Virus record (IMG/VR): IMGVR_UViG_3300015194_000009
Coordinates: 1 to 32,975 of that record
Strand: one strand, 5' to 3'
DNA length: 32,975 bases
DNA from: a virus
Part shown: positions 14,886 through 32,074 of the stretch, piece by piece
How the letters are laid out: each line of letters opens with the position of its first letter
Position numbering within the stretch: the first letter of the stretch is position 1
Translations under genes and position numbers: made by a program
Notes under the pieces: model-generated
Told to the model about the DNA's origin: nothing
Seen by the model: only the letters and a program-made list of their open reading frames with translations
Databases searched by the model: none

Positions 14886-15145
14886 AGCGGGCGCCCCACA
14901 AAGCCCACGGCTTTCCCGTCGTACTCTTCGTGCCCGACAGTAAACGGCAAGTTGGTTTCTTCGCCGTCCACAGACATTGTGGGGTGCTTCGGTGTGCACC
15001 CAAGGTGCATCCCCCGGAAACGAGCTACGCCGTCGCAGTTAATGCAACGACCGGTTATTTCTGCGTACTTTATGTTGGTGTCTTCCATCCGAGCTACGCG
15101 GACGTTAAACTCGAACTCTAAGTGGGGGCACTGTCCTTCGCTCAC
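14882..15145 (-). CDS. Small zinc-finger-like phage protein (87 aa)
   Basis: The 87-aa protein has CPH near the N-terminus (C6, H8) and a CINC pair (C34, C37), which could bind zinc. The pattern CPHLEFEFNVRVARM, then a C..C strand, an F.G...G loop and PTMSVDGEETNLPF is found in a widespread but uncharacterised family of tailed-phage proteins. GTG 15145 overlaps the peptidase stop (GTGA). The gene has more AT-ending codons than its neighbours, suggesting separate exchange. Confidence 0.7.
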   Translation of the reverse strand: MSEGQCPHLEFEFNVRVARMEDTNIKYAEITGRCINCDGVARFRGMHLGCTPKHPTMSVDGEETNLPFTVGHEEYDGKAVGFVGRPL

Positions 15146-15534
15146 GGGTAGGCGCGCCAGCTTAACTCGAAATGGCCCCAATCTTTAAAGTGAACCCAGT
15201 CTCCGCCCCAAACCACCGGAATATGCAGTTCGTGGCTGGCGGCCAGCACCGCGGCGGCGACGCCTGTGTAGGGGTGCGGGTCTGCACTGACCAGCTGACC
15301 GCGCGCGTCGAAGCAGGAAACGTCCACGGCGCAACCGTACCCACCTGCCCCCGCAAGGTGGCGGCTGTGCTGCGTCGTAGACGCGCCCTTCGCGACCAGG
15401 GCTGCTTCCTGGCTGGCCAGGCGGAGACCGGACGTTATGAGGAAGGGCTGTTTGGTCGCCCCGTAGGCGAAGGTCATGACCTTCACCAGATCGGGGTGGA
15501 CGCCTGCCAGGCTGTGAACGCTGCGCTGGTCCAC
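15142..15534 (-). CDS. M15 peptidase, probable endolysin
   Basis: This 130-aa enzyme matches phage M15 peptidases that cut peptidoglycan stem peptides at lysis. It starts with SVHSLAGVHPDLVKVM, the usual N-terminal LxxVHPdLv segment, then TSGLR, SRH (H59), AVDVS (D71) and WGGDWVHFKDWGHFEL with H121 as third zinc ligand. The spacing from H59 to D71 is longer than the usual SxHxxGxAxD by about five residues (a GAGGYG insertion). It has no signal peptide, so it needs a holin; a single-span membrane protein gene lies two genes upstream. GTG 15534 gives a 4-nt gap to the preceding stop. TTG 15558 is an alternative start that would overlap it. Confidence 0.87.
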   Translation of the reverse strand: MDQRSVHSLAGVHPDLVKVMTFAYGATKQPFLITSGLRLASQEAALVAKGASTTQHSRHLAGAGGYGCAVDVSCFDARGQLVSADPHPYTGVAAAVLAASHELHIPVVWGGDWVHFKDWGHFELSWRAYP

Positions 15535-15538
15535 CGGG

Positions 15539-15688
15539 TCAGGCGGTGCGCGGGCCAAGGGTGCGCGGCGTCTTCGCCACGCCCGACCGCGTCGGGTTCG
15601 TGTTCACCGAACCGCTGCCCGGGCGCATCGACGCATCGGAGCCGGCGGGGGAGCGGTTGGTCATGCCCTTGGGCTTCAGTTCGGCCAT
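15539..15688 (-). CDS. Small basic protein of unknown function (49 aa)
   Basis: This 49-codon gene was found from its ribosome-binding site: AAGGA (15697-15701 on the opposite strand) lies 8 nt before ATG 15688. The product is rich in serine, threonine, proline, arginine and lysine, probably unstructured, with no recognised family. It sits between the membrane protein and the M15 peptidase. Confidence 0.6.
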   Translation of the reverse strand: MAELKPKGMTNRSPAGSDASMRPGSGSVNTNPTRSGVAKTPRTLGPRTA

Positions 15689-15742
15689 GGCGGTGGTCCT
15701 TGTGCTGAGCCGAGCTTAGCGGCGCCCTAGCTGATGTGCAAG

Positions 15743-15928
15743 TCAGCCGATGTGGATGTTGGGAAACAGCCAGTGGGACAGGGCGTACACAAGCATGGCG
15801 CTGCCGATGCACCGCACCCACCACTTGATCTCTTTGCCTGTGCGCTCGCACTCCTTGACGTGAGAGTCCAAGTCGTAGCGCGTCTTCAGGATCGCGTCGT
15901 GCATGTCGCCTAAATCCGGTGCGCCCAC
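15743..15928 (-). CDS. Small membrane protein, candidate holin (61 aa)
   Basis: The 61-aa protein has a charged helical N-terminal half (DAILKTRYDLDSHVKECERT) and one membrane helix near the C-terminus (WWVRCIGSAMLVYALSHWLF, about residues 36-55). This layout resembles XhlA-type membrane proteins that take part in phage lysis. It lies close to the M15 endolysin gene. A perfect AGGAGG lies 6 nt before GTG 15928 and fixes the start. The other holin candidate in the window is the Pam3-gp28-like protein at the far end of the late block, so its exact role is open. Confidence 0.72.
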   Translation of the reverse strand: MGAPDLGDMHDAILKTRYDLDSHVKECERTGKEIKWWVRCIGSAMLVYALSHWLFPNIHIG

Positions 15929-15934
15929 GGCGGG

Positions 15935-15940
15935 CCTCCT
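15935..15940 (-). promoter_or_regulatory. Strong ribosome-binding site of the small membrane protein
   Basis: AGGAGG is 6 nt upstream of a GTG start and sets it. It is one of the strongest ribosome-binding sites in the late block. Confidence 0.8.
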
Positions 15941-15985
15941 AAACTGAACGCTGTCGTGAGCGGTGAAGGTTCTTACTATCGAGCG

Positions 15986-16096
15986 CTACGGCTGTCGCCT
16001 GCATTTGATCGTGCCGTACCCCGCCTCCGTCCCTGAGCTGAACGTGCCCTGTCCGACCAGATACACCGTGGTTGTGGACGACACGATGCCGGACAT
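15986..16096 (-). CDS. Possible tiny protein after the fibre gene (36 aa)
   Basis: A 36-codon frame begins at an ATG overlapping the stop of the third fibre-like gene (TGATG), the junction used by many real genes here. The product begins MSGIVSSTTTVYLVGQGTF and ends basic. I recognise no family. A plus-strand frame of 64 codons covers the same bases but runs antisense to the block. The remaining bases up to 15941 look like a short leader. Confidence 0.35.
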   Translation of the reverse strand: MSGIVSSTTTVYLVGQGTFSSGTEAGYGTIKCRRQP

Positions 16097-17517
16097 CAGT
16101 ACGCCTGAGCCTGGAACCCATACACGTCAGCCACCCCCGCGCCCGCGAGAACAGTGACCGTGCAGGTCGTGGTGGTGGAGGCGGTCTGTCGCGGCGCTAC
16201 CGCTGTGGTCCGGTCTTGCATAACGCAATCCCAGCCGTTCGGCGCGGTCGTGGCGAAGGTCAGGATCAGGGTTTGACCCGCCGTGCAGGTGGCGACCATC
16301 GTTCCGGCCGTGTTGCCCCCCACCTGTGTGCCGACGCTGGTGCAGGTTCCGGTCACGGTTGGAGCGGACCCCGTGGCGACGGTGGCGGGCACTTTTAGCG
16401 GCAGGGTTAAGGTGGAAAACCCGATCGTTGTATCAATTGTGAATTGATCCGACACGCCCAGAGCGGTCGAGTTACCAATCGCAAAGTGGTCGTTGATCGA
16501 GTTGTCTGCGCCCATGCACCATGTCGTGCCGCTGACGATGTTGGCGCAGAATTGCGGGTCGGAGCCAGAATTAGCGGAGCTTGTCTTCGCGACGAATTGA
16601 GCCGCACCGGTACCGGTGTTCTGGACCGTCATGTCCAGTTCGCCTTGGATGCTACCAGTAGCATAAAACGGAGTGATGGTGTAGTAACTGCCGGAGAGCG
16701 TGGGGAGTGTGATCGCATATACCGTCTGACCATTCGACATAGTGAGGATCGTCTCTTGGTGCACCGCACCACTGCCTGAGTATGGCGACGCTGCAAGGAT
16801 CGTCGGCCCCTCAAAGCTGAGGCGGTTCTGCGCGTCGTACCAGGGCATTTTTAGATAAGCGCTGCCCGCCGCGTTCAACTGCACATCATAAACGCCGTTC
16901 GTCCCGTGAACGATCTGCATACCGTTGTAGAGGTTGATCTGCTTGGTGGACCAATTCATGTCCATCATCGGCGTGTTCGACCAGTTCTGCCACGAGAACA
17001 GCGGAGCCGAGAACGACGTAGAAGCCGCAGTGGCCGAGCCATCTACCGGATAGATGCCGCTTTGGAGGCGGTGAATAACTCCATCCGTACCCTGAAATTG
17101 GAAGTGCATCTCCATCGAGGGGACACCGCCGCTGGGGCAGAATAAGTTCTCGATGGCCCAGTGAAGCGACGGCTCGGTGGACAGTTCTCGCCCGCCCCCC
17201 GAAGTGATGTTGTAACCCATCATCTGGACGATATCGGGGCGGGAGGAGCAAGGTGTGTTTGCACCCACGCCGTTGTAGTAGGTCAAGTTCCACTTAGCCG
17301 ACAACGCGTCCATCGCCGTAGTATCTACGGTCTTGCTGTTTCCACTTGCTGACTGGGTTTGGCGGAGAACGTTCGACCCGAGCGCACCCGTGAAGGTCGA
17401 GCCCGAGCCGCCGCCAGGGATCGACTGGGCGCTCAGCGGTCCCGCGAGGGTGACGAGCGCGCACACGCCCGCGAACAAGATCAAGGCCACAAGACGTATT
17501 TTCAGAGACCGGCTCAT
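16096..17517 (-). CDS. Fibre-like protein with Sec signal peptide (473 aa)
   Basis: Residues 1-30 form a classic signal peptide: basic MSRSLKIR, a long hydrophobic core, and the cleavage site LSA before QS. The mature part is rich in serine, threonine, glycine and asparagine and looks like an all-beta tail-fibre or receptor-binding protein. Its C-terminus has the LKVPATVATGSAPTVTGTC type of strand pattern seen in phage tail proteins. The mature part has eight cysteines, an even number that suits disulfide bonds in the periplasm. It is the last of three such genes after the nozzle gene. Its ATG overlaps the stop of the previous one. A virion role, an exported decoy or a cell-surface role are all possible. 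Confidence 0.78.
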   Translation of the reverse strand: MSRSLKIRLVALILFAGVCALVTLAGPLSAQSIPGGGSGSTFTGALGSNVLRQTQSASGNSKTVDTTAMDALSAKWNLTYYNGVGANTPCSSRPDIVQMMGYNITSGGGRELSTEPSLHWAIENLFCPSGGVPSMEMHFQFQGTDGVIHRLQSGIYPVDGSATAASTSFSAPLFSWQNWSNTPMMDMNWSTKQINLYNGMQIVHGTNGVYDVQLNAAGSAYLKMPWYDAQNRLSFEGPTILAASPYSGSGAVHQETILTMSNGQTVYAITLPTLSGSYYTITPFYATGSIQGELDMTVQNTGTGAAQFVAKTSSANSGSDPQFCANIVSGTTWCMGADNSINDHFAIGNSTALGVSDQFTIDTTIGFSTLTLPLKVPATVATGSAPTVTGTCTSVGTQVGGNTAGTMVATCTAGQTLILTFATTAPNGWDCVMQDRTTAVAPRQTASTTTTCTVTVLAGAGVADVYGFQAQAY

Positions 17518-18143
17518 TGGCTCGACACCACAAACTTGACCCCATCAGTCGTGATTGACGTGATGGCGATGTTGTCGGTCAGGACGAGGCCGCCCGGCGA
17601 CGCGCAGCTCACGCTGTTCCCCGCGGCGACCTGAAAGGCGTTGGACGTGGTGGCGGACCCGGTGGCGCCGAAGAACACGTACTCCGTCTCGCTGGACGTG
17701 TTCTGGAGCAAGCAGCCTTTGCGCGTGGCGCTGGACGCCAGGGCAGACTGGAACACCCCGTGCGTGGTGATCGTACCGCCCGCCTGCGTCGTCGTGGCCG
17801 TGGCGCCGATCACCGACAGGTTGCCCGACGTATCCACCTTGGCGACGGTGACGTTGCCGCCGGTGGCCCCTGTCGCCGTGCCACCGATGATAATGGGCGG
17901 GTTGGCATTGGCCGCGCCGGCGGCAGTGGGACCGTAGACCGCGCCGCCACCTCCCCCACCTGAAGCCGAGGTGCAGAGCTTGCCGGTCGTGTCCTGCGTG
18001 ATGTTGTAGGTGTTGCCGACGACCGGCGTATTCGGCGGTGTGCCGCACGCCGTCACGGTCTGTGCCTGCACCGTCTGCGCGAGCACTGGTGCGGCGAACA
18101 GCAGAGCCGCTAGGAAGCCAAGGAATGCAACGATGCGCTTCAT
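17514..18143 (-). CDS. Fibre-like protein with Sec signal peptide (209 aa)
   Basis: The first 22 residues are a signal peptide (MKRIVAFLGFLAALLFAAPV, cleavage at VLA before QT). The mature region has a glycine run, then AVYGPTAAGAANANPP and VAKVDTSGNLSVIG, a segment seen in many phage tail-fibre and prophage tail proteins. It ends with a beta-rich domain. Four cysteines occur in the mature part, consistent with disulfides. The stop overlaps the next ATG (ATGA). No enzymatic motif is seen. Confidence 0.78.
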   Translation of the reverse strand: MKRIVAFLGFLAALLFAAPVLAQTVQAQTVTACGTPPNTPVVGNTYNITQDTTGKLCTSASGGGGGGAVYGPTAAGAANANPPIIIGGTATGATGGNVTVAKVDTSGNLSVIGATATTTQAGGTITTHGVFQSALASSATRKGCLLQNTSSETEYVFFGATGSATTSNAFQVAAGNSVSCASPGGLVLTDNIAITSITTDGVKFVVSSQ

Positions 18144-18165
18144 GGCGCTGTCCCCGAAATGGTGA

Positions 18166-18194
18166 GGCGGAACGTAGCCGAAGCACGCTCCGCC
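18166..18194 (-). other. Strong hairpin between two fibre-like genes
   Basis: On the minus strand GGCGGAGCG pairs with CGTTCCGCC (one G-T wobble), and an inner GC-TTCG-GC closes the loop with a stable UUCG tetraloop. It lies in the 61-nt gap between the first and second fibre-like genes. No T-run follows, so it may act in mRNA processing or partial termination, not as a standard terminator. Confidence 0.6.
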
Positions 18195-18204
18195 GTCAAA
18201 GTTG

Positions 18205-19314
18205 TCAGTTGCTCACGACGACGACGTTGAGCATATCCGGGTCGGTCGCGCCGGAGCCGGAGCCCGCGTTGCTGATCTGGATATGGAAGTAGGCGTTATT
18301 CGTGTTGTTCGGCGAACCGACAATGCCCGAGACGACGGGGTTTGTCGCGGAGCAGGCCGTGCTGTTACAGGCCGCCGAAGCGGTGACTGCGGGCGTGCCT
18401 CCGAGAGCGGACGTGAACGCGATGGAGTAGTTCCCCGCGGAGATGCGCGTGCAGGACGAGACGTTGAAGCTGGCGGTCAGCGTGCAAGAGCCGCCGGTGC
18501 TGCCCTGGATCAGCGCCCACGCCTTGACGGGGCTGGCGGGAACCGCCGCCCATGTAGCATCGGCCTTCAGGAACTTGCCCGCAGCGGCGTCGCCAGCCGC
18601 CGGCGCTGGCACGAGCCCGCGCGTTCCGCCGGAGCCGCTGTCGCCCACCATGGTGGAGATGGCGACAGAGCTTGCCGAGGTAGCCCGGCCTTTGGCGTCG
18701 AAGGTGACCTGAGCGACGTTCAGTCCGTCGCCATAGGTAGACGCCGACACGCCGCTGTTGGCCAAGGTCAGGGCCGTGGCGACACTGGCCGACCCGTCCA
18801 CCGAACCTGAGCCGGTGGCGTCGCCCGTGAAGCTCAACGTCCGCGCCGTGGTCCACTTGGCCGCCGAGCCGGTGATGCTCGAGGACAGGAAGGCCAGGGT
18901 CTGCGTCGTCGAACCGTCGTAGTATTTCAGCAGACCCGATGCGCCCCACAGGTGACCGGTTATCGGGCTGGTCGGCGCCGTGCCGTTGGGGACAATGAAC
19001 GACGGCCCGCTCACGGTGGCCGCGGCGAAGCCCACAGGGCCCGTGAAGGTGTCCCCCGCCTTGTTGGCCGGCGTGAAGGTCAGGGCGGTCGTCACGTCGC
19101 CGCTGGTGAGCGTCACCGCCCCCGTGCGGGTGTTGAAGCTGGCCACCAGGCCGTTGGCGCAGGACAGCACGCTGTTGAAGTTCGACATCACCTGGTTGGC
19201 GTCGGCGGTCTGGCCGTTCGTCAGGGTGAAGGGATAAGCCGGGCAGGCAGCAAAGGCCGGCGCGGCAAACAGGCCGACCAGCAGCGCGGCGGCCAGGGCG
19301 AGGATCTTCTTCAT
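18205..19314 (-). CDS. Fibre-like protein with Sec signal peptide (369 aa)
   Basis: The N-terminus MKKILALAAALLVGLFAAPA, with cleavage at AFA, is a textbook signal peptide. The mature part starts with ACPAYPFTLTNGQTADANQV and has FNTRTGAVTLTSGDV, a motif very common in phage tail fibres, followed by repeated beta-rich units (TFTGPVGFAAATVSG, then VAQVTFDAKGRATSASSVA). Six cysteines lie in the mature part. ATG 19314 overlaps the nozzle stop (ATGA); a longer frame upstream would bury the signal peptide and is rejected. A fibre is expected just after the nozzle gene; a signal peptide on it is not, since tail fibres normally fold in the cytoplasm. Confidence 0.8.
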   Translation of the reverse strand: MKKILALAAALLVGLFAAPAFAACPAYPFTLTNGQTADANQVMSNFNSVLSCANGLVASFNTRTGAVTLTSGDVTTALTFTPANKAGDTFTGPVGFAAATVSGPSFIVPNGTAPTSPITGHLWGASGLLKYYDGSTTQTLAFLSSSITGSAAKWTTARTLSFTGDATGSGSVDGSASVATALTLANSGVSASTYGDGLNVAQVTFDAKGRATSASSVAISTMVGDSGSGGTRGLVPAPAAGDAAAGKFLKADATWAAVPASPVKAWALIQGSTGGSCTLTASFNVSSCTRISAGNYSIAFTSALGGTPAVTASAACNSTACSATNPVVSGIVGSPNNTNNAYFHIQISNAGSGSGATDPDMLNVVVVSN

Positions 19315-21161
19315 GGCAGCATATACCCCAAAGGCTGGTAGCGAAGGTGGACATTGCCGAGGGCGAAGCTCGCCACCGACGCGCCGCTGATCAGCAGCGA
19401 AGCCTGTTTGAATACCACGGGAAGCGGCCAAGCGACGCGCGTCAGCCGCAGATAGCCGGCGGCGGCGCCCCACACCGCGGAACCCCAGTTGAAGCCGCCC
19501 CACACCGTCGAGCCCGTTCCGCCGCCCGTCTGCGTCACGACCGCCAGCTGCGTCGATCCTTCGTCGAGCGCCTGGATCGTGATCACCTGGCCGCTGGGCG
19601 ACGCCACGACGTACTCAGTCTCGACGATCGCGTTCATCGCCATCTGCTCGTTGTCGGGCATGAGGCAAGTCTGAAACGACCACGACAGCGCAACGCCGTT
19701 CTCTGTGTATACAGACGCCGACGTAGGAACACAGGTCGACAACCACAGCTTGGCGTCCACGCCGACAGCCGCAGCTACGAAACCCGTAGACGCACCGTTG
19801 TAAGGCTGAATAAGAGTGGAGCCGAAAGTGTGCGGCCCGGTCCATATCTTCTGGTTAAAGTCGTACCAATACTCTTGGTAAGGCTGGTTGAGTGCCGCGT
19901 TGTTCCTCACCGTGATCCGTAATACGTTTTGGTTGAACGCCGCACACATGCGAGACGGATTGAGCGCGTTAAGGAAGGGCACGTTCACGCCGAGCCCATA
20001 GGCCCCGATGGGCTCGGATAGCGTGCCGCTGAACCCCAGGATGCGCACCCCGTCGACGGCCACGTAGGCAATGCCGAGCGGCGTAGCGCACAGGGTGTTG
20101 GGCGCGAAGGTCCCCACCGAACCGTTGACCACATTGGACGCAAGGTTGCCCGTCGCGGAGTCTCCGGTGATCTGGTAGAAGGCGCCCGCACCTTTGAAGG
20201 CCACCAGCGCTTCGATCACGCCGCCCGACACCTGGCTGGTCAGCGGCTCGCCCACCACGGCGGTGATGTCCTGGTTGTCGCCCAGCACAAGCGCCTGCGT
20301 GGCGTTGGTCACCTGTGTGGGGTTGAGGCTGTCGGAGAACACCAGGGCATTGGCCACGGCGTAGTAGGCTCGCCCGCTGAACCCGGCGACCGACTTCGGC
20401 ACGGCGGTCAGCGGGTTGCCGGTCGTGTTGCCCGCCCCCCACAACGGCGCCGCGGGTGTGCCGCCGGCCACGGTCAGGGCCACGCCTGCGGCGGTGGCGG
20501 TCGTCGCCTGCGACAGCGTGACCGACAACCCGCCCGGGGAGGCTATGGAGGCGATGGTCGTGCCTGCGGGAACACCCGCGCCGGTGACCGTCATACCGAC
20601 CGCCCAGCCCGCTTGCAGCACGTTGGTGGACAGGTTGTCGACCAGGGTGCTCGTGTGCGTGTTGCCGGTGACGGTGGTGGATGAGAAGGACGAAATGTCG
20701 ATCCACCCGAAGTACGCTCCGGCGCCGCCAGGGAAGCCGGGGTGCGTCACGATGATGCGGCTCTGCGTCACCGCCTCCATCTTGGGCGGGACCCAATCGC
20801 CGGTGAGGCTCTGCGTCGCGGGCAGGTTTGCGGACAGCTGGCCGCTGATCGCGATGAAGACGTTGTTGGCGATGTCGTAGCAGAAGGGCTGGTCCTTGCC
20901 CGCGAAGGCCGCCGAGGAGATCATGCCGTAGGCGCGCGTCCCGAGCACCAGGAGCGCCGTGACGCCCGCGGGGGTGGTGAAGCCCGCGAAGGTGGTCAGC
21001 GACGTGCTGGCGGGCCGCGCTACGAACACGTTGGGCGTCGACGGCGCGGGGACCAGGTTGGACAGCGAAGACATGGCGCCCAAGGGCACGTTGCTGCCGT
21101 CGAGCGCGTCGGACAACCCGATGGGGCGGAAGGTCAGGGGGACGCCCTTGCGGATCGCCAC
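19311..21161 (-). CDS. Tail nozzle / tail tube-like protein (616 aa)
   Basis: The 616-aa product follows the adaptor gene and precedes the fibre genes, the usual place of the nozzle or tail-tubular-B protein in podoviruses. It begins with VPLTFRPIGLSDALDGSNVP and LSNLVPAPSTPNVFVARPA and continues with beta-propeller-like strand repeats, as in gp12/P22 gp10-type tail proteins. No catalytic motif is seen. It starts at GTG 21161 with GGAGG 5 nt upstream, inside the last codons of the HNH-like gene. A patch at about 19670-19965 uses many AT-ending codons, unlike the rest of the gene. Confidence 0.75.
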   Translation of the reverse strand: MAIRKGVPLTFRPIGLSDALDGSNVPLGAMSSLSNLVPAPSTPNVFVARPASTSLTTFAGFTTPAGVTALLVLGTRAYGMISSAAFAGKDQPFCYDIANNVFIAISGQLSANLPATQSLTGDWVPPKMEAVTQSRIIVTHPGFPGGAGAYFGWIDISSFSSTTVTGNTHTSTLVDNLSTNVLQAGWAVGMTVTGAGVPAGTTIASIASPGGLSVTLSQATTATAAGVALTVAGGTPAAPLWGAGNTTGNPLTAVPKSVAGFSGRAYYAVANALVFSDSLNPTQVTNATQALVLGDNQDITAVVGEPLTSQVSGGVIEALVAFKGAGAFYQITGDSATGNLASNVVNGSVGTFAPNTLCATPLGIAYVAVDGVRILGFSGTLSEPIGAYGLGVNVPFLNALNPSRMCAAFNQNVLRITVRNNAALNQPYQEYWYDFNQKIWTGPHTFGSTLIQPYNGASTGFVAAAVGVDAKLWLSTCVPTSASVYTENGVALSWSFQTCLMPDNEQMAMNAIVETEYVVASPSGQVITIQALDEGSTQLAVVTQTGGGTGSTVWGGFNWGSAVWGAAAGYLRLTRVAWPLPVVFKQASLLISGASVASFALGNVHLRYQPLGYMLP

Positions 21162-21162
21162 G

Positions 21163-21723
21163 TCAGCCTCCAGTCTCGCGCTCTAGGTAAGCCAGAACGG
21201 CGCGCAACTCGTCCAGTGTGGCGTCACGCTTCAGCAGGTTCGCCCGGTTAGAGATCACACGAACGTTGCTGCGCACGTACCCGCGCTCAGGCACAAGACG
21301 ATCTAGAGACGGGGAGTTTGGGTTGAAGCCCGCTCGTCCTTCTCTCGCGACCAGCGGGAGGCCAAGCACCGGGCACAAAACAGGGGGCACTAAATCCGCG
21401 AGGACCAAATCGAACGGCAACCCCAAGCGCTTCGCCCGGCTCTGCGCATTCTTGAGCATATGGTAGCCTGGGTGTTTCCTGACCCAAGCGAGAGTGGCCG
21501 CTTGGGCTCTGTCGGGGTGGCGCGCTCGGTACCGCCGGCACGCCCCACGTAAGCGTTCCGGGTCTTCCTTTTGTAGCGCCGCGACGTGCGCCCTGGACTT
21601 CTCCCGCACGGCGTCCCGGTTTTCCGTCTTCCAACGAACGTTGTCCGCCCGGCGCTTAGTAGGGTCGACGGCGTACCGCGCCCTGCGTCGAGCGTTGCGG
21701 GCGTCCCTCTGCTCTTGATCCAC
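21163..21723 (-). CDS. HNH-like free-standing homing-type endonuclease (186 aa)
   Basis: The N-terminal 90 residues are very basic and helical (ARRRARYAVDPTKRRADNVR and similar units), probably DNA-binding. The C-terminal part has LCPVLGLPL, then SPSLDRLVPERGYVRSNVRV and ISNRANLLKRDAT, the signature of a phage endonuclease family related to HNH enzymes (SPSLDRIDP..GYV.GNV..IS.RAN). Such genes usually spread by cutting related phage genomes at their insertion site. GTG 21723 with AGGAG 7 nt upstream sets the start. The gene lies between the adaptor and nozzle genes, and its last codons supply the nozzle's ribosome-binding site. Codon use is more AT-ending than its neighbours. Confidence 0.8.
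   Translation of the reverse strand: MDQEQRDARNARRRARYAVDPTKRRADNVRWKTENRDAVREKSRAHVAALQKEDPERLRGACRRYRARHPDRAQAATLAWVRKHPGYHMLKNAQSRAKRLGLPFDLVLADLVPPVLCPVLGLPLVAREGRAGFNPNSPSLDRLVPERGYVRSNVRVISNRANLLKRDATLDELRAVLAYLERETGG
21167..21171 (-). promoter_or_regulatory. Nozzle ribosome-binding site inside the HNH-like gene
   Basis: GGAGG, 5 nt before GTG 21161, is part of the last codons (ETGG-stop) of the HNH-like gene, so the inserted gene carries or keeps the signal needed to translate the nozzle gene. Confidence 0.7.
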
Positions 21724-21743
21724 CCCTGCTCTCCTCGCGCTGT

Positions 21744-22499
21744 TCACGAGAGGTGTACCACGCCATGCGCTAGGGGCAACAAACAACATAGGAGGAACCC
21801 CCAGCCGATAGTCTTCGTATTCGGCAACCTATTGAAAGAACTACCGAATTGCCGACGGTCCAGGGTGACGTTGTAGGTGCGCGTCTCACCGTCGTCCTTC
21901 AGCACCAGGTACTTGCGCAGGATGTTCTCGGCTTCGGTCAGGAAGGCTGGGCCACGCTCGTCGTCGGCCAGCTGCATCAGCTCGCCGGCGAGGCGGGTCT
22001 TCAGGTAGTTGCTGTTCAGGAACCACGGCACCGTCGCGCTGCTCTCCGGGGTCGCGATGTCGGGCTGCTGCTTGAAGTAGCGCAGGGTCGCCACGTAGGC
22101 GCCGCTCGACGGCGGCCACACGTAAGCCTGCGGCGGGCTCACCGACATATCGACGGTGTACTGCGTCGGGTAGGAGTTGAAGCCCGGCGTCTGCACCAGG
22201 GCATCGTACTCAGACTGATCGACGGCGATCATGCGGTAAGGCACGCCGCTGATCGTGTAGAAGAACTCCGGTCCCTTGGCGCCCTGTTCGACGCGGAGGA
22301 AGTCGGCGGGGAAAGCGTAGGGCCCTGCCCCGCCACTCAGGGTGACAGTCGTGGACGCCCGGTTCACCTGGAAGTCGTAGTCCTGACAAAGCTCCTGAAG
22401 GATCATGTTCAGAAGCTGGCCGGCCTGCGACGTGAAGCCGGGCGCCTTGGCGATCTGACCGGCGAGCGTGACGAGTTGCGCGGCGGTCAGACCGGCCAT
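21744..22499 (-). CDS. Tail adaptor protein, SU10 type (251 aa)
   Basis: The protein resembles SU10-type phage head-tail adaptors: a helical N-terminus, the ILQELCQDYDFQVNRASTTV segment, then PYAFPADFLRVEQG, YPTQYTVD, a Y.P.P strand with LRYFKQQPDI, and a C-terminal LDRRQFGSSFNRLPNTKTIGW. In the family, to my recollection, the chain usually ends near this last GW. Here it continues with 18 extra hydrophobic residues (starting GFLLCC) that appear to come from the adjoining endonuclease insertion. The last codons before that junction are strongly AT-ending, unlike the rest of the gene. It forms the ring between portal and nozzle. The start is 1 nt after the preceding stop. Confidence 0.82.
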   Translation of the reverse strand: MAGLTAAQLVTLAGQIAKAPGFTSQAGQLLNMILQELCQDYDFQVNRASTTVTLSGGAGPYAFPADFLRVEQGAKGPEFFYTISGVPYRMIAVDQSEYDALVQTPGFNSYPTQYTVDMSVSPPQAYVWPPSSGAYVATLRYFKQQPDIATPESSATVPWFLNSNYLKTRLAGELMQLADDERGPAFLTEAENILRKYLVLKDDGETRTYNVTLDRRQFGSSFNRLPNTKTIGWGFLLCCLLPLAHGVVHLS

Positions 22500-22500
22500 A

Positions 22501-23079
22501 TCAGCCCCCGTTTTCGAACAGGGCCTTGCGGGCGGCGATCTTGCCGGTCAGCAGGGCGATCTGGTCTTCGTAGCGCTTGACCGAAATGGCCAGGTTCTGC
22601 TCCGCCAGGGCGGCTTCAGCGTCGGCCTTTTCGAGGTCGGCGGCGATGGTCGCCTTGTCGTGAGCGAGGCGGTCCACGTTGGCCTTGACGTGGCCGGTGG
22701 GCTCGTACTTGCCTGTACGGCCCGACTGTTGGGCCTTCTGCGCGCCCTCCTGGATGATGCGGGTCTGCTCGCCGTCGATCTCTTGCACCCGCACCTTGCG
22801 ACGCTGCTGCGCGGCGCCGTGGTCCGTGCGAACGCGAGACAGGTCTTCGGCGAACTGCGCCAGGGTCTGCTGGTGCTTCTCCAGTTCGTCCTGAAGCTCG
22901 GGCAGTTCGGCCTTGGCCTTCTGCCGCTCCGCGAGCGCCACCATACTGTCGACGACGGCGTTTTGCAGGTCAACCGGATCGTCACGCTCGACATAGGTTT
23001 GGAGCGTGATCTGGCGGTCGTTCCCCAGCGTGACGAGAAGGGAAATGCCGATGGCGGGGATCTTGGTTTGCGCTTCCAT
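22501..23079 (-). CDS. Coiled-coil structural protein (192 aa)
   Basis: After a short beta-rich start (TKIPAIGISLLVTLG and ITLQTYVERDDPVDLQNAVV), the protein is a long coiled coil from about residue 45: ALAERQKAKAELPELQDELE through the end, dense in alternating Glu/Lys/Arg and leucine. It has no recognised domain. Its position between a 167-aa protein and the adaptor in the head-tail part of the late block suggests a virion or assembly role. The ATG lies 2 nt after the stop of the preceding gene. Confidence 0.75.
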   Translation of the reverse strand: MEAQTKIPAIGISLLVTLGNDRQITLQTYVERDDPVDLQNAVVDSMVALAERQKAKAELPELQDELEKHQQTLAQFAEDLSRVRTDHGAAQQRRKVRVQEIDGEQTRIIQEGAQKAQQSGRTGKYEPTGHVKANVDRLAHDKATIAADLEKADAEAALAEQNLAISVKRYEDQIALLTGKIAARKALFENGG

Positions 23080-23081
23080 GA

Positions 23082-23585
23082 TCACACCATCTGTTGCGGC
23101 GCAGACGAGACCGCGCCCGAGCGGGCGTTGATCAGCGTATTGCGCGGGGCCTGGCGCTGGAGGTCTTTGGCGTTCTTGCCGTCGATCTCCATCTGGTGCT
23201 TCCACCCGCGGAACTGAATGTCCCGAAGCGTATCCGCTTGGTGGCGCGGAACCTTATAGGTGTGCCCGTGCCAGTAGGCCGCGCCATTCAGGGTGATCTT
23301 GTCGGAGTGTTCGGCCAGGTCGAGGGTGATCATCACCAACTCGTCCTTGGCGCCGTCACCCGTGATGCGGCCCTGCTCCTGCCGCGCGTCGGCGATCGCG
23401 GCATCCAGCGCCTGCTTGCGCGCCGCGGCCTTGCGCTCGTCGGTAACCTTCTTGAACGCTTCGGCTTTGATGGCCTCGAGTTCTTCGACGGTCAGCAGCG
23501 GCTGCACTTCAGGCGGCGTGTCGTCCATCAGCGCGGCGCGCGCCGCCAACTCTTCGGGCGACAGCGCGTTGTCGTTCTTGTCCAT
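23082..23585 (-). CDS. Head/connector-region protein of unknown function (167 aa)
   Basis: The N-terminal part is acidic and helical (LSPEELAARAALMDDTPPEV, then LLTVEELEAIKAEAFKKVTDE). The C-terminal part has a beta segment with ITLNGAAYWHGHTYKVPRHQ and ADTLRDIQFRGWKHQ. I cannot name a family; similar small proteins are found between capsid and adaptor genes in related phages. ATG 23585 has GAGGA about 7 nt upstream and is preferred over the in-frame TTG 23606. Confidence 0.7.
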   Translation of the reverse strand: MDKNDNALSPEELAARAALMDDTPPEVQPLLTVEELEAIKAEAFKKVTDERKAAARKQALDAAIADARQEQGRITGDGAKDELVMITLDLAEHSDKITLNGAAYWHGHTYKVPRHQADTLRDIQFRGWKHQMEIDGKNAKDLQRQAPRNTLINARSGAVSSAPQQMV

Positions 23586-23622
23586 GGGGTTTCCTCTGGG
23601 GTCCAAGCGAGCGGGCCCCAGA

Positions 23623-23937
23623 TCAGCTATGGGTCCAGGGTCCGTTCGCGATGGTATCCGCGGAAAGCAGAATAGGCCAGCCTCTGCTGTCGACCCCCAC
23701 GTAGTCGCCGGGCCGCACCTTCAGCACGCCGCGGTTCGGGATGATCAGAAGACCATTGCCGTTGAACCCGCCGACCAGCTCGTGCGCGTTGCCCTGGTCG
23801 TTCTTGATCGCGTTGTTCAGCGCGGCCACGTCGGCGAACGCCATGCCGGCGCCGCTCGCGACGACGCCCACACCGTGCTTGAAAGCAAGCGCGGTCAGGC
23901 TGGTGGTCGCGTTGGTCCCGAGAGTAATGGTGGCCAT
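23623..23937 (-). CDS. Small beta-rich head protein, possible capsid decoration (104 aa)
   Basis: The 104-aa protein is rich in glycine, asparagine and small residues and looks all-beta: ATITLGTNATTSLTALAF, NGNGLLIIPNRGVLKVRPGD and YVGVDSRGWPILLSAD. It is the next late-strand gene after the capsid gene, separated from it only by the endonuclease VII-like insertion. Small decoration or head-fibre proteins often follow the capsid gene, so this role is proposed from position and composition alone. Confidence 0.6.
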   Translation of the reverse strand: MATITLGTNATTSLTALAFKHGVGVVASGAGMAFADVAALNNAIKNDQGNAHELVGGFNGNGLLIIPNRGVLKVRPGDYVGVDSRGWPILLSADTIANGPWTHS

Positions 23938-23971
23938 TGACCTGTCCTTAGACTGCTGTTACGGCGGGGGC

Positions 23972-23976
23972 AGGAG
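23972..23976 (+). promoter_or_regulatory. Ribosome-binding site of the endonuclease VII-like gene
   Basis: AGGAG lies 7 nt before ATG 23984 and fixes the start of this plus-strand gene. Confidence 0.75.
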
Positions 23977-23983
23977 AAACAAC

Positions 23984-24460
23984 ATGCCTAGACCCCGCCC
24001 TGACACATCGGTAGAAAAACGCTGCTGCGCCTGCAAAGAGACGAAGCCGAGAGACCAGTTCTACAAGTCGAAGCGCACGTTCGACGGCCTTCAGACCAAC
24101 TGCAGGGCGTGTCACGCAGCGCGCCGGGCCGAGTGGGGCGCCAGCAACAAAGAGACGACGCGCCGGTACAGCAAGGCGTGGAGGGCAGCTAATCCCCGGT
24201 TGGCGAAAGACTACAAGCTCAAGACCGCCTATGGCATCCCGCTTGGAACCTACGACCGTATGCTGGCGTCGCAGCGTGGTCTCTGCGCCATCTGCGGCTC
24301 CCCGGACCCTTTCGGGCGCGGAGACTTTCACGTCGACCACTGCCACGATACCGGGGCCGTCAGAGGACTTCTCTGCGCACCCTGCAACACCGGTATCGGG
24401 CAGCTTGGTCATAGTGTAGAGCGCCTACAGTTGGCCGTGGATTACCTTAGCCGAAAGTAG
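23984..24460 (+). CDS. Endonuclease VII / HNH-type nuclease on the opposite strand (158 aa)
   Basis: This 158-aa protein has the zinc-binding layout of phage recombination endonuclease VII: CCACKETK and C..C in the first 43 residues, then LCAICGS (C101, C104), HVDHCH (116-121) and LLCAPCNTGIGQLG (C131, C134). True Endo VII resolves DNA junctions, but many phage copies of this type are mobile homing-type nucleases. It is the only gene on the plus strand between 6985 and the window's end; it is inserted between the capsid and the next head gene, and its end overlaps the capsid's last codons by 14 bp. AGGAG 7 nt upstream sets ATG 23984. Without a late promoter of its own it would be read only from an early or plus-strand transcript. 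Confidence 0.85.
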   Translation: MPRPRPDTSVEKRCCACKETKPRDQFYKSKRTFDGLQTNCRACHAARRAEWGASNKETTRRYSKAWRAANPRLAKDYKLKTAYGIPLGTYDRMLASQRGLCAICGSPDPFGRGDFHVDHCHDTGAVRGLLCAPCNTGIGQLGHSVERLQLAVDYLSRK

Positions 24461-25793
24461 ACGTGAAGGCAGAGACGCTTTCAATCCTAGCAAAGAAGGA
24501 TTGATTTTCAATTATGGTTCCGTAGAAAAGCTTCCATCCCACAACACGAAGCTGGTTGAGCGGGTCGGACTTGTCAGCGGTCTTCAGGTAGGTGAACTCC
24601 GCGTCCTTCAGCACGACCTGGCCGTAGGCTCCGCGACCGAAGATGAAGGTCGGGTACACGGTCAGGCCGGTGGCCGGGGCCGCGGGCGGAACCTGCGCCA
24701 CGCCCACGCCAGTGATGATCACCGCACCGTTGCCGGCCAGCTGCGTCGCCTGCCCCGCGAGGGGCCCGGTGGTCGGGCCGCTGGCGGACAGAGCGAGGTT
24801 GGCGGGCGAAGACGTGGTGCCGATGTAGACGCTGAAGGTGAAGCCCACCAGGTTGGGGAGCGTCACGCTGATCGACCCAGTGGGGCCGGTGACGGCGAGC
24901 GAACCCGACACCTGGTAGATGCGGCTCTCGTACTGGTTCTGCGTGTCCGACGCGGTGACCGTGATGAAGTAGTTGTTGGTCGCCAGGGCGCCGGCGGTGC
25001 CCGGCGTGCCCGTGATCTGCGCCACGCCCGTGAAGGACGGGACCATGTTGGACTTGCAGAAGCGAATGCCCGACCACTCGCCGACCTCGTAGTTGTAGAG
25101 GCGGTTCAGGTCGGAATAGGTCCACGCGGTGATGACGGTCGCGTTCTGCCGGAAGTCCGCCACGACCAGGGTGTGGCAGATGGCGGCGTAGTGCGGCATC
25201 TGGCGCGGGTTCTCCGACGCGCGGGCGCCGCCGTTTTCGACCGCCACCATGGTGTTGGTCATCTCGTCGCCCATGTAGCGCGGGGCGCCGAGCGTTTCGA
25301 GCGCGGCGTCCGTGCGGATCACCGTCTGCGTGTCGAGCACGTCGCCGGCGACCAGGGCGGCGCGCGAGCCGCGGCTGTTCACATAGTTGATCTGCGTGCC
25401 GGCCATCAGGTTGTTGAAGGTGTTGCGCTCGAGGGTTTCAGCGACCTGAAGGCCAACGAGTTCGATCGCCTTCTTGAACAGCGGGTGTTTGATGGTCAGT
25501 TCGGCCACGTCGGTGATGGTCACCTTGTCGCCCCACTGTTGGGCGGTGGCGGACACCTGGGCGATGGTCATGGTCTCGCCGGTCGGCGGGACGCCTTCGG
25601 AAAGCGGCGCGAAGGGCAGCGGGATGCGGTTGTAGCGGGTGGCGGTGTAGGTGGTGCCGCGGCCTTCCGGCAGGGTCAGCGGATCGCCGAACTGATATGC
25701 GCACAGCTGGCGGCGGGCCAGCGGCAGAGTCTCGTCAGCGATGTACGCTTCGATGTCCGAAGAGAACTGCGAAGCGGTGTTGTTGCCGGCCAT
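24447..25793 (-). CDS. Major capsid protein, N4-gp56 family
   Basis: The 448-aa protein matches the N4-gp56 family: an N-terminal arm, GTTYTATRYNRIPLPFAPLS, VPPTGETMTIAQVSATAQQW, HPLFKKAIELVGLQVAETLE, and the C-terminal YPTFIFGRGAYGQVVLK and DPLNQLRVVGWK blocks. It builds the capsid shell. Residues about 252-376 are an inserted beta-rich domain that looks Ig-like (ITGTPGTAGALATNNYFITV and later strands), probably exposed on the outer surface. The last 30-odd codons are unusually AT-ending, right next to the endonuclease VII-like gene. The ribosome-binding site lies in a hairpin. It is preceded by the scaffold gene, as usual. Confidence 0.93.
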   Translation of the reverse strand: MAGNNTASQFSSDIEAYIADETLPLARRQLCAYQFGDPLTLPEGRGTTYTATRYNRIPLPFAPLSEGVPPTGETMTIAQVSATAQQWGDKVTITDVAELTIKHPLFKKAIELVGLQVAETLERNTFNNLMAGTQINYVNSRGSRAALVAGDVLDTQTVIRTDAALETLGAPRYMGDEMTNTMVAVENGGARASENPRQMPHYAAICHTLVVADFRQNATVITAWTYSDLNRLYNYEVGEWSGIRFCKSNMVPSFTGVAQITGTPGTAGALATNNYFITVTASDTQNQYESRIYQVSGSLAVTGPTGSISVTLPNLVGFTFSVYIGTTSSPANLALSASGPTTGPLAGQATQLAGNGAVIITGVGVAQVPPAAPATGLTVYPTFIFGRGAYGQVVLKDAEFTYLKTADKSDPLNQLRVVGWKLFYGTIIENQSFFARIESVSAFTSTFG

Positions 25794-26710: not shown

Positions 26711-28807
26711 TCAGGTCTTCCGCGGCGGAACGACCGCACCGGCGGCGCCCATCTGGTCGGGGTTGATCGCGCCCGGCGGCCCGCGCATCCCGCGGCCCGC
26801 ATCCGGCTGTGCGCCTTCCTGAAGGCCACCGCCACCGCCGCCCTGACCTTGGCCCATCGCCTTGGCCTGCGCCTGGTTTTTCATCTGCATCTGCTGCATG
26901 TGCCCCTGGATGTGGGCGCGGAACGTCCCGTGCGGGTCTCCGCCTTCCGCCTGCATCGCCTGCATGTGCGCCTGAAGGTGTTCAATGTCCGGGTCGTTGG
27001 GGTGGACCGGCACGGCGAACCCATGCTCGAGCATCCCGTTCTCTTCGTTCGGGTCGACGGTCAACTGCTTCTTCAGATCCTTGAAGATCAGGGGTCCGAG
27101 TCTCGGGCCAAAGGCGTTCTCCGCCAGCTGGACCATCAGGGGCGCCATGTCGAGCTGGAAACCCTGGTACATCTGCGGGGGCACGCCCTTGAACACATTG
27201 GCCATGGCGATCTGCTGCTGGACCTGCGCGGCGTTGCGCGCGGCTTCGACGCCGAACCAGCGGAAGGCGTAGCGCTCGTCCATCTCCAACGGCGGGATGG
27301 TCTCCATCTTGGCGCGCTCGCCCATCTCGCCGAACACGCGCACCAGCATCTCGTCGTCGCGGAACTGGTAGTCGAGATCGGCGAACCACTGGAGCAGCGG
27401 CGACAGGATGGCTTCTTCAATCACGGTCACGGCGTCGGCGGTGGTCAGGATGTCGACCTGTTGCTCCATGGCGATTTCCGCCTGGTTGCGCTTCTGCCGG
27501 CCACCCGTCTGCTGCGGCATCATGGACGGGTTGACGCCCAAGGTCTGGAACACTTCCTGCTTGCAGGCGCCCACGATCTCGAACCCGTGCTTCCACAGCT
27601 CGGGGAACTTGGCGAACTCGGTGTCCTTCGGGCTCGTCTCCCACACCGCGGCCAGGCCGAGCACCATGGACCCAACCCGCGGGTTCTTCTCGGGGTCGGT
27701 CATGACGATCGGCATGGCGCTGAAGTGCGCCGTGTCCGCCGCTTCGTTGATGGCGTCGTTGGCGAACACCTGCATGTCGATCACGCTGGCGGACGGCGAG
27801 CGGCCCTTGAAGACGCCCAGCGACTTGTCCACGGAAGCCGAGATGACCGGCACCTTGTCGTTCCAGTAGGGGTTGCGCTTGCACCCCATGATCTGCTGCT
27901 CGCCGCCGTAGTAGGTTCGGCACAGGCGATAGTCGTCCCCCACCTTCAGCTTGGTCCACGTCTCGTACCCGAGAACGTGCTTCGACCCGCCGCCGGCCTT
28001 GATCCCCGCGGCGTCTGCCAGGTTCTTCGCGGTGTCGACCCGGCCCGGAACATCCTTCTTGGACATGGACTTGATCAGCGCTTCGCCTACGTCCTTGACG
28101 CAATCGCCGTCCTTGATCATCCGCTTGATCGCGGCCTTGGACCAACGGCGGACGAGCGTCACCGACCCGCCGACGTGTATGGCGTCGTCGATGCTCTCGC
28201 ACGTCGCCGGCAGAACCAGGAGGTCGGCGTCGGGGATGACTTCCACGTGCGGACGCCCAACGTGGACTTCCTCCTCCTCCAGCATTTCGGTCGTGCCGAG
28301 ATCGGGGAAGGCCAGCCCGTCCTTTTGCACGTCGGGCTTCTTGCGGCGCCACACCTGGTGCAGGGTCGTCTCGCGCCAGTCGACGTACAGGGTGTACTGC
28401 CCTTCCACGTCGCCGGCCTTGACCATGGCGGGGACGACCTCTGTGCGCAGTTTTGCCTTGCGAACATAGTTGTCGAGCAGGGCCACGATAGCGGACGGCT
28501 CGTCACCGTCAGGCGTGGTCGCTTCGACGTAGCGCCCGTTCTGCGGGAACACCTGGTTGACGAAACGGGTCTTGCGCGCCTCAATGGCGTTCTGGACAAT
28601 AGGTACAAAGATTTGGGAGTTTCCACTATAGAACTGTCGCTCGCCGAGCTTGCAGTTGTACATGTCCCAATAGTCTATGTTGTCGTTCGCACGACTGCGC
28701 TGGTCGATGTATCCTTTGTCCACGTCGGCGAACAACTTCAGAAGTTCGCGGCGCACGGTGATGCGGGTCGACAGCTCCTCGCTGCGGTTGAGTTTCTTCT
28801 TGGCCAT
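26711..28807 (-). CDS. Portal protein (698 aa)
   Basis: The 698-aa product follows the large terminase and precedes the scaffold, the standard portal position. It has the portal N-terminal pattern VDKGYIDQRSRANDNIDYWD, then the conserved GNSQIFVPIVQNAIEARKTR, a central DVIDMQVFANDAINEAADTA-like helical region, and a glutamine- and methionine-rich C-terminus (AHMQAMQAEGGDPHGTF and later a poly-Gly). The portal is the dodecameric DNA channel of the head. Residues about 30-75 use many AT-ending codons, unlike the rest. Its ATG overlaps the terminase stop by one base (TGATG). Confidence 0.92.
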   Translation of the reverse strand: MAKKKLNRSEELSTRITVRRELLKLFADVDKGYIDQRSRANDNIDYWDMYNCKLGERQFYSGNSQIFVPIVQNAIEARKTRFVNQVFPQNGRYVEATTPDGDEPSAIVALLDNYVRKAKLRTEVVPAMVKAGDVEGQYTLYVDWRETTLHQVWRRKKPDVQKDGLAFPDLGTTEMLEEEEVHVGRPHVEVIPDADLLVLPATCESIDDAIHVGGSVTLVRRWSKAAIKRMIKDGDCVKDVGEALIKSMSKKDVPGRVDTAKNLADAAGIKAGGGSKHVLGYETWTKLKVGDDYRLCRTYYGGEQQIMGCKRNPYWNDKVPVISASVDKSLGVFKGRSPSASVIDMQVFANDAINEAADTAHFSAMPIVMTDPEKNPRVGSMVLGLAAVWETSPKDTEFAKFPELWKHGFEIVGACKQEVFQTLGVNPSMMPQQTGGRQKRNQAEIAMEQQVDILTTADAVTVIEEAILSPLLQWFADLDYQFRDDEMLVRVFGEMGERAKMETIPPLEMDERYAFRWFGVEAARNAAQVQQQIAMANVFKGVPPQMYQGFQLDMAPLMVQLAENAFGPRLGPLIFKDLKKQLTVDPNEENGMLEHGFAVPVHPNDPDIEHLQAHMQAMQAEGGDPHGTFRAHIQGHMQQMQMKNQAQAKAMGQGQGGGGGGLQEGAQPDAGRGMRGPPGAINPDQMGAAGAVVPPRKT

Positions 28808-31702: not shown

Positions 31703-32074
31703 TCAGTGAACCTTCTGGCTGGTGGCCAGTGCGGCGAAGGCCCGCACCGCCGTCTGGGCCGCACCGACCGCGCCGGCCACGTCCCCGGACTTCAGGCGCA
31801 CCGCCGCCTCCGCCGTCTGGATCGACCCCCAGGCATAGTCGTCGGCGCGGCGGATGCTGTCGAGCGTCGCCGGCGTCTTGCACAGGGTCAGGCCCGTGGT
31901 GCAGTCAGGGAGGGCGGCGTAGTCCTTGGCGACGCGGAGCGCGACCCAATAGGACGCCTCAACGCCGTACAGGGTCTGCGCCGGCGTCGTGTCACCGGGA
32001 CGGGCTTTGGGCGTGGCGCATGAGGCCAGGGCGAGGCAGGCGGCGCTAACCGCCAAGAGTCGTTGAAGGCGCAT
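31703..32074 (-). CDS. Phage lipoprotein, possible outer-membrane spanin or exclusion protein (123 aa)
   Basis: The first 19 residues are a lipoprotein signal: MRLQRLLAVSAACLALASC, with the lipobox ending at C19 (L-A-S-C). The mature part is helical and alanine-rich (GVEASYWVALRVAKDYAALP, later DVAGAVGAAQTAVRAFAALA), with a C-T-T-G-x-x-L-C pair. It overlaps the end of the Pam3-gp28-like holin gene. Outer-membrane lipoproteins in phages usually act as spanins at lysis or block superinfection; the size and helix content suit either. A spanin partner in the inner membrane was not identified. Confidence 0.78.
   Translation of the reverse strand: MRLQRLLAVSAACLALASCATPKARPGDTTPAQTLYGVEASYWVALRVAKDYAALPDCTTGLTLCKTPATLDSIRRADDYAWGSIQTAEAAVRLKSGDVAGAVGAAQTAVRAFAALATSQKVH

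Follow-up and report, generated by a model that had tools for sequence, protein, structure and literature searches.

In the accepted view, tail fibres fold in the cytoplasm and become part of the virion before the cell lyses. In podoviruses such as P22, Sf6, T7, SU10 and PhiM1, the fibre gene (gp9 in P22, gp14 in Sf6, gp17 in T7) lies directly after that of the tail nozzle (gp10, gp8 and gp12, respectively), and to our knowledge the fibres of these phages lack signal peptides (SPs) and are synthesised in the cytoplasm. Signal sequences are carried by pIII and pVIII, the coat proteins of filamentous phages. Exported trimeric proteins resembling phage fibres have been described in Bdellovibrio, whose MAT fibres are located on the predator surface and have a conserved domain immediately after the signal peptide (PMC10769870). 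A study of Porphyromonas phages reported SP-bearing phage genes, with capsid proteins and spanins among those linked to core phage functions (PMC10367356), and no report on exported tail fibres of tailed phages was found in open-access papers. The window analysed here, which is the whole 32,975-base stretch of the IMG/VR virus record IMGVR_UViG_3300015194_000009, contains three consecutive genes after a nozzle gene, termed P1, P2 and P3, whose products were predicted to begin with Sec signal peptides. The locus resembles those of the podoviruses in its predicted nozzle fold and in the fibre gene directly after it; unlike podovirus fibres, the products carry SPs and paired cysteines. The proposal that virion proteins take an export route before assembly recalls pIII and pVIII, whereas filamentous phages are not tailed phages and are assembled at the membrane as they are extruded, without lysis. 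The tail fibre itself is a known kind of protein; a Sec route to the virion would be a new assembly route and is the stronger claim.

P1 (369 amino acids (aa), 18205-19314), P2 (209 aa, 17514-18143) and P3 (473 aa, 16096-17517) follow the nozzle gene in this order on the minus strand and are sited in the virion block, as expected for tail fibre genes. Synthesis in the cytoplasm without an SP, a usual though not strictly defining trait of tail fibres, is departed from by all three. A rule-based scan gave each protein a signal peptide of n-h-c layout whose -3 and -1 residues are small, and this feature is conserved in relatives. The SP of P1 (residues 1-22, 19249-19314) reads MKKILALAAALLVGLFAAPAFA and is followed by AC, with a predicted cleavage at AFA/A; that of P2 (18078-18143) reads MKRIVAFLGFLAALLFAAPVLA and is followed by QT, with cleavage at VLA/Q; and that of P3 (17428-17517) ends in AGPLSA before QS. 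The mature parts of P1 and P2 contain six and four cysteines, respectively, and P3 has nine, one of which lies inside the SP, leaving eight. These results bear out the preliminary description, in which Sec signal peptides cleaved at AFA, VLA and LSA and mature counts of 8, 4 and 6 cysteines for P3, P2 and P1 had been proposed. The P1 start and the nozzle stop share 4 nt (ATGA, 19311-19314), as do the P3 start and the P2 stop (ATGA, 17514-17517), and GGGGAC lies just 5' of the ATG of P2. Hence, the hydrophobic segments are downstream of the true starts, and the concern raised in the same description, that the starts in fact lie after these segments, is contradicted. The SP-bearing start overlaps the nozzle stop by the same 4 nt in 56 relatives.

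The earlier term "fibre-like" held for P1, held for P3 through its C-terminal tip, and applies to P2 by position and SP-bearing relatives only. P1 matched the tail fibre profiles phrog_11355 (E 1.6e-8) and phrog_7389 (E 6.3e-9), and the fibre motifs of P1 and its relatives are common to the tail-fibre PHROGs and the solved SU10 and PhiM1 fibres. The tip of P3 (about residues 376-473) is common to SP-bearing fibres of relatives. P2 had no direct match to known tail fibres, and its relatives nearly all bear SPs. Searches of P1-P3 against Pfam and NCBIfam gave no family above cut-off. P1 consists of an N-terminal domain named NG-ADA here (residues 24-61, 19132-19245), a fibre middle and a tip with four cysteines. 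In the AlphaFold2 model of P1, the predicted local distance difference test (pLDDT) score was 82-95 over residues 21-60 and poor beyond residue 60, and NG-ADA appeared as about 40 aa forming an extended stretch and a helix. Cys24 (19243-19245) and Cys52 (19159-19161) are its proposed disulfide pair. The position of the domain directly after the signal peptide of an exported fibre-like protein resembles that in the MAT fibres. However, P1 is encoded by a phage and the MAT fibres by bacteria; the MAT N domain is about 130 aa and beta-rich, and 13/21 MAT members end in an S74 chaperone/protease (PMC10769870), which was not found in P1-P3 by Pfam matching. An apparent occurrence of NG-ADA in Kuravirus (SU10) fibres was dropped, as the match falls in the adjoining GANSDITSLTGLTTPLS stretch, outside the domain.

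Relatives were collected from IMG/VR, in which 186 contigs carried the N-terminal domain of P1 and 267 carried the nozzle. The search for the same exported set in related phages, which had been suggested beforehand, succeeded: a large uncultured clade typically has SP-bearing fibre blocks of one to five genes, with five such genes after the nozzle in locus L003. The post-nozzle gene nearly always opens with NG-ADA, the consensus of which is C-x-x-x-P-Y-T-L-T-N-G-T-T-A-D-A-T-Q-V-M-A-N-F-N-x-I-x-x-C. The domain stands behind an SP in most phages; in others, the initiator Met lies 2-8 residues ahead of it and there is no SP. A tblastn search with the N-terminus of an SP-less relative found nothing.

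The enrichment of SPs was evaluated with one fixed, home-made mechanical rule, which accepted 9/9 known Escherichia coli SPs, in 133 unique IMG/VR nozzle loci, where downstream covers the 5.5 kb that follow the nozzle. SPs were called in 157/454 genes (35%) after the nozzle versus 49/862 (5.7%) before it, and some of the latter also resemble true exported proteins. At the 5.7% rate, the chance of three SPs in a row is about 2e-4. Cysteine parity was examined in cysteine-containing proteins clustered at 70% identity, with cysteines counted in the mature part. Even numbers were found in 114/128 SP-bearing proteins versus 186/450 SP-less ones (Fisher 2e-23), the latter comprising 45/111 downstream and 141/339 upstream of the nozzle. 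Among proteins with at least two cysteines, the counts were 114/125 and 186/301, respectively. When each family of variable parts was given one vote, 25 were even, 2 odd and 1 tied (p 6e-6), and cysteines beyond NG-ADA were also even (38/44). Three of the 14 odd SP-bearing proteins (L156, L162 and L182) were odd only through a cleavage site misplaced by the script. Disulfide-bonded exported proteins of Gram-negative bacteria are known to favour even cysteine numbers (PMC7678975).

The first fibre was classified in 119 nozzle loci: 57 had both an SP and the NG-ADA cysteine pair (56 by rule and L082 by eye), 31 had an SP without the pair, 31 had neither, and none had the pair without an SP. Along the nozzle tree, the SP state changed at least eight times, and the cysteine pair changed with it in 5-6 independent pairs and in the opposite direction in none. 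In the cleavage motif of 56 non-redundant proteins, position -1 was Ala in all 56 and position -3 in 53, and the site lay 11 residues before NG in 43. Sites were chosen by picking the best small-x-small match in the vicinity, a procedure biased towards Ala; a constant distance to NG was not imposed. The SP sequences were 20% identical on average, versus 57% for NG-ADA. The even-cysteine excess, the restriction of the cysteine pair to SP-bearing fibres and the AxA at a fixed distance strongly support export and periplasmic disulfides, the fit between even cysteines and such disulfides having been suggested before. Judged from these sequence statistics, fibres of the P1-P3 type are very likely exported into an oxidising compartment. 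They seem to carry signal peptidase I (SPase I) signal peptides under selection, and the mature parts, with paired cysteines of which one pair would staple NG-ADA, appear to be built for that compartment.

The nozzle (616 aa, 19311-21161, minus strand) has no SP. Its sequence had no match in PHROGs, Pfam or NCBIfam, and its profile gave only chance-level matches to PDB sequences (best E 0.008). An AlphaFold2 model built from 14 relatives (pLDDT 73) aligned with P22 gp10 over 416 residues (VIA Z 20.8, root-mean-square deviation 4.3), matched further podovirus tail hubs including Sf6 gp8, and matched a Pa223 tail protein in Foldseek (1e-11). The name nozzle, at first a guess, is justified by this predicted P22 gp10 fold, which P22 gp10 would share with T7 gp12. 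A strict W-G-x3-W-G-x3-W motif (WG motif) was found in the nozzle of 123/155 loci, with a close variant in most others. In the window, it spans W554-W564 (19470-19502, minus strand), about 63 residues from the C-terminus, within a model loop (551-568) whose pLDDT is below 50; it is the proposed docking site of NG-ADA. The strict motif occurred elsewhere in 3 of 5431 other phage open reading frames (ORFs), all in NG-ADA loci without a recognised nozzle, and in 0/14,470 shuffled ORFs. Those three proteins are 505-657 aa long, carry the motif 57-64 residues before their C-terminus and are probably divergent nozzles. Among nozzle loci, 128 had both the motif and an NG-ADA fibre, 5 had neither and 1 combined the motif with a first fibre that is divergent; inspection of two seeming exceptions revealed WG variants. 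The motif accompanies NG-ADA fibres in SP-bearing and SP-less phages alike, and the simplest reading of this co-occurrence is that NG-ADA docks on it. Nozzles without the motif were seen in L155, L175, L183, L184, L193, L194 and L199 and are long (about 900 aa in L155 and L199); no NG-ADA fibre is present in the members whose sequence extends far enough downstream, and other SP-bearing fibre-like genes occur in some. Because both the loop and the NG-ADA fibre are missing there, a different docking mode is expected in this clade.

The destination of the exported proteins was then considered. The complete interval after the nozzle was available in 13 SP-bearing loci, and in 12 of them there was no SP-less ORF of at least 200 aa that might be a second fibre. 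SP-bearing phages thus keep WG and NG-ADA and mostly encode no other fibre, which suggests that the exported proteins are virion fibres. We rather favour the view that P1-P3 are tail fibres of a short-tailed phage, exported and then docked at lysis, over that of decoys. They would be made as Sec precursors, cleaved, oxidised by host Dsb enzymes and trimerised in the periplasm, while heads and nozzles would be completed in the cytoplasm. The nozzle has no SP, so the two could meet only when the membrane opens, at lysis; the pools would then mix, NG-ADA would dock on the tryptophan-bearing WG loop of the nozzle, and the particle would be completed outside the cytoplasm. Tailspikes can be added in vitro to P22 heads that are already complete, which makes late attachment feasible. 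The gain is probably a disulfide-hardened fibre for soil or water and the avoidance of premature fibre binding inside the cell. Several points weigh against this reading. The SP calls depend on a home-made rule, the complete SP-bearing intervals number only 13, and the evidence for WG/NG-ADA docking is co-occurrence, with a Fisher p uncorrected for kinship, since the five WG-less nozzles form a single clade lacking the loop. The raw locus counts for the SP and the cysteine pair are likewise inflated by kinship, the independent pairs by themselves are marginal (p 0.03-0.06), and 31 SP-bearing fibres lack the NG-ADA cysteine pair. Moreover, P2 and P3 have no NG-ADA, the proposed docking domain, and a fibre exported before a virion exists is awkward, as it could be lost or could bind to receptors on the host producing it.

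Joining virions at lysis, blocking receptors and coating the host had all been proposed in the preliminary description; the first is favoured by the retained WG motif and the lack of another fibre, and the latter two have no evidence of their own. It is unlikely that P1-P3, although exported and folded in the periplasm, are not virion parts and serve as receptor binders, a cell coat, superinfection blockers or decoys that free progeny from debris. Export itself is equally well supported on this view, several exported copies per genome are found (five in L003), an SP-less first fibre with SP-bearing extra fibres in L009, L036 and L122 fits an extra role, and SP-bearing proteins resembling outer-membrane barrels lie near the nozzle in L056 and L082. 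However, the SP-bearing phages keep the WG motif and the first-gene NG-ADA like the SP-less ones, the 12 loci without another fibre gene would yield fibreless virions, and an SP alone leads to the periplasm, not to the cell surface. A division of labour, with P1 as a virion fibre added at lysis and with P2, P3 and the small exported proteins acting in the periplasm as assembly factors, blockers or lysis helpers, is considered a minor possibility. The restriction of NG-ADA to P1 agrees with it, as do the mostly short lengths of the P2 relatives and of a small exported family present in 28/133 loci, whereas the tip that P3 has in common with fibres of relatives argues for a fibre.

Retention of the hydrophobic N-termini has a known precedent, since signal-arrest-release endolysins of phages use uncleaved signals (PMC3765740). 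The N-termini of P1-P3 might similarly tether the proteins to the inner membrane or plug into the tail. This is very improbable given the near-invariant Ala at -1 and -3, the fixed distance to the mature domain and the paired cysteines right behind the site; SP-less relatives begin 2-8 residues before NG-ADA, and the fibre can therefore do without the segment. That there is no export at all, and that the hydrophobic starts arose by chance or through misplaced start codons, is scarcely credible: the rule does call positives among upstream genes at the rate given above, but the starts are ATGA-coupled in the window and in the 56 relatives, and cysteine parity cannot come from misplaced starts.

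Further exported genes were observed around the nozzle. The small family mentioned above, which was counted by a simple pattern, follows the fibres (150-200 aa, some about 400) and begins like ANLSLLSGPQYSEPSQILATINTLIRNIN, for example at +6137 in L003, +1308 in L054 and +1369 in L082 from the nozzle end; it may represent a variant of NG-ADA, the proposed docking domain. SP-bearing fibre-like proteins with QKTKAxLxTEVNTNxxDNTTGLITP or similar also lie 5' of the nozzle in L029, L032, L038, L060, L079 and L086, and hence exported fibre-like genes are not limited to the post-nozzle block. The barrel-like SP-bearing proteins of L056 and L082 (TSPAFAADLSVKAP...GWYAGFG) are located about 2.3-2.4 kb before the nozzle end and might serve some relatives as an exclusion factor or receptor mimic. 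A contig of an Elusimicrobia metagenome-assembled genome (L112, JAGWUP010000017.1) has a full nozzle and an SP-less NG-ADA fibre, and is either a phage contig binned into the bacterial genome or a prophage.

NG-ADA also has bacterial kin, mostly alphaproteobacterial. A conserved alphaproteobacterial locus with exported NG-ADA genes was found in L091-L109 (e.g., L102:1487-9083, L099:2215-12172 and L103:6879-14118). In these bacterial contigs, one to four SP-bearing NG-ADA fibre-like genes stand in tandem beside a small exported YD/RHS-repeat protein, which ends in the spacing WGx3(W/F)Gx3W or a close variant in 18/19 alphaproteobacterial contigs. A giant exported RHS protein was present in the inspected contigs that reach far enough, some with a transglutaminase-like or C39 domain. 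The bacterial loci are similar to the phage fibres in having NG-ADA behind an SP, the cysteine pair and a neighbour with the same tryptophan spacing; unlike the phage loci, they are chromosomal, have no nozzle nearby and export both partners. From its gene content, the locus looks like an exported RHS system using phage-type fibres, of which we know of no description.

On the minus strand of the window, the listed order is the terminase (28807-30843), the portal (26711-28807), a scaffold-like protein, the major head protein (24447-25793), small neck-type genes and the 616-aa nozzle, and an M15-type endolysin (15142-15558) was also found. Three cysteine-free proteins (364, 368 and 1053 aa) on the minus strand occupy the place expected of ejection proteins, and a small protein at 31703-32074 (minus strand) with a lipobox-like start (MRLQRLLAVSAACLALASCATPKARPGD) is possibly an outer-membrane spanin. 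Window scans with Rfam and for tRNA were empty. In INPHARED (50,697 phage records), tblastn with P1, P2, P3, the nozzle and the portal gave no match, nor did megablast with window 15000-25000, and the terminase had partial matches below 60% identity only. Judged from INPHARED, there is no phage isolate with this nozzle or portal.

It is about an even question whether these loci represent a widespread lineage of tailed phages with two-compartment virions joined at lysis by the NG-ADA/WG pair, a pair shared with bacterial exported RHS systems. If so, virions would be finished outside the cytoplasm and would need SecA, SPase I and Dsb enzymes from the host, and tail fibres would be able to carry disulfides. 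Annotation pipelines may discard such fibre genes or rename them as host proteins. Furthermore, an export tag together with a small docking domain would provide a route for fibre genes between phages and exported bacterial systems.

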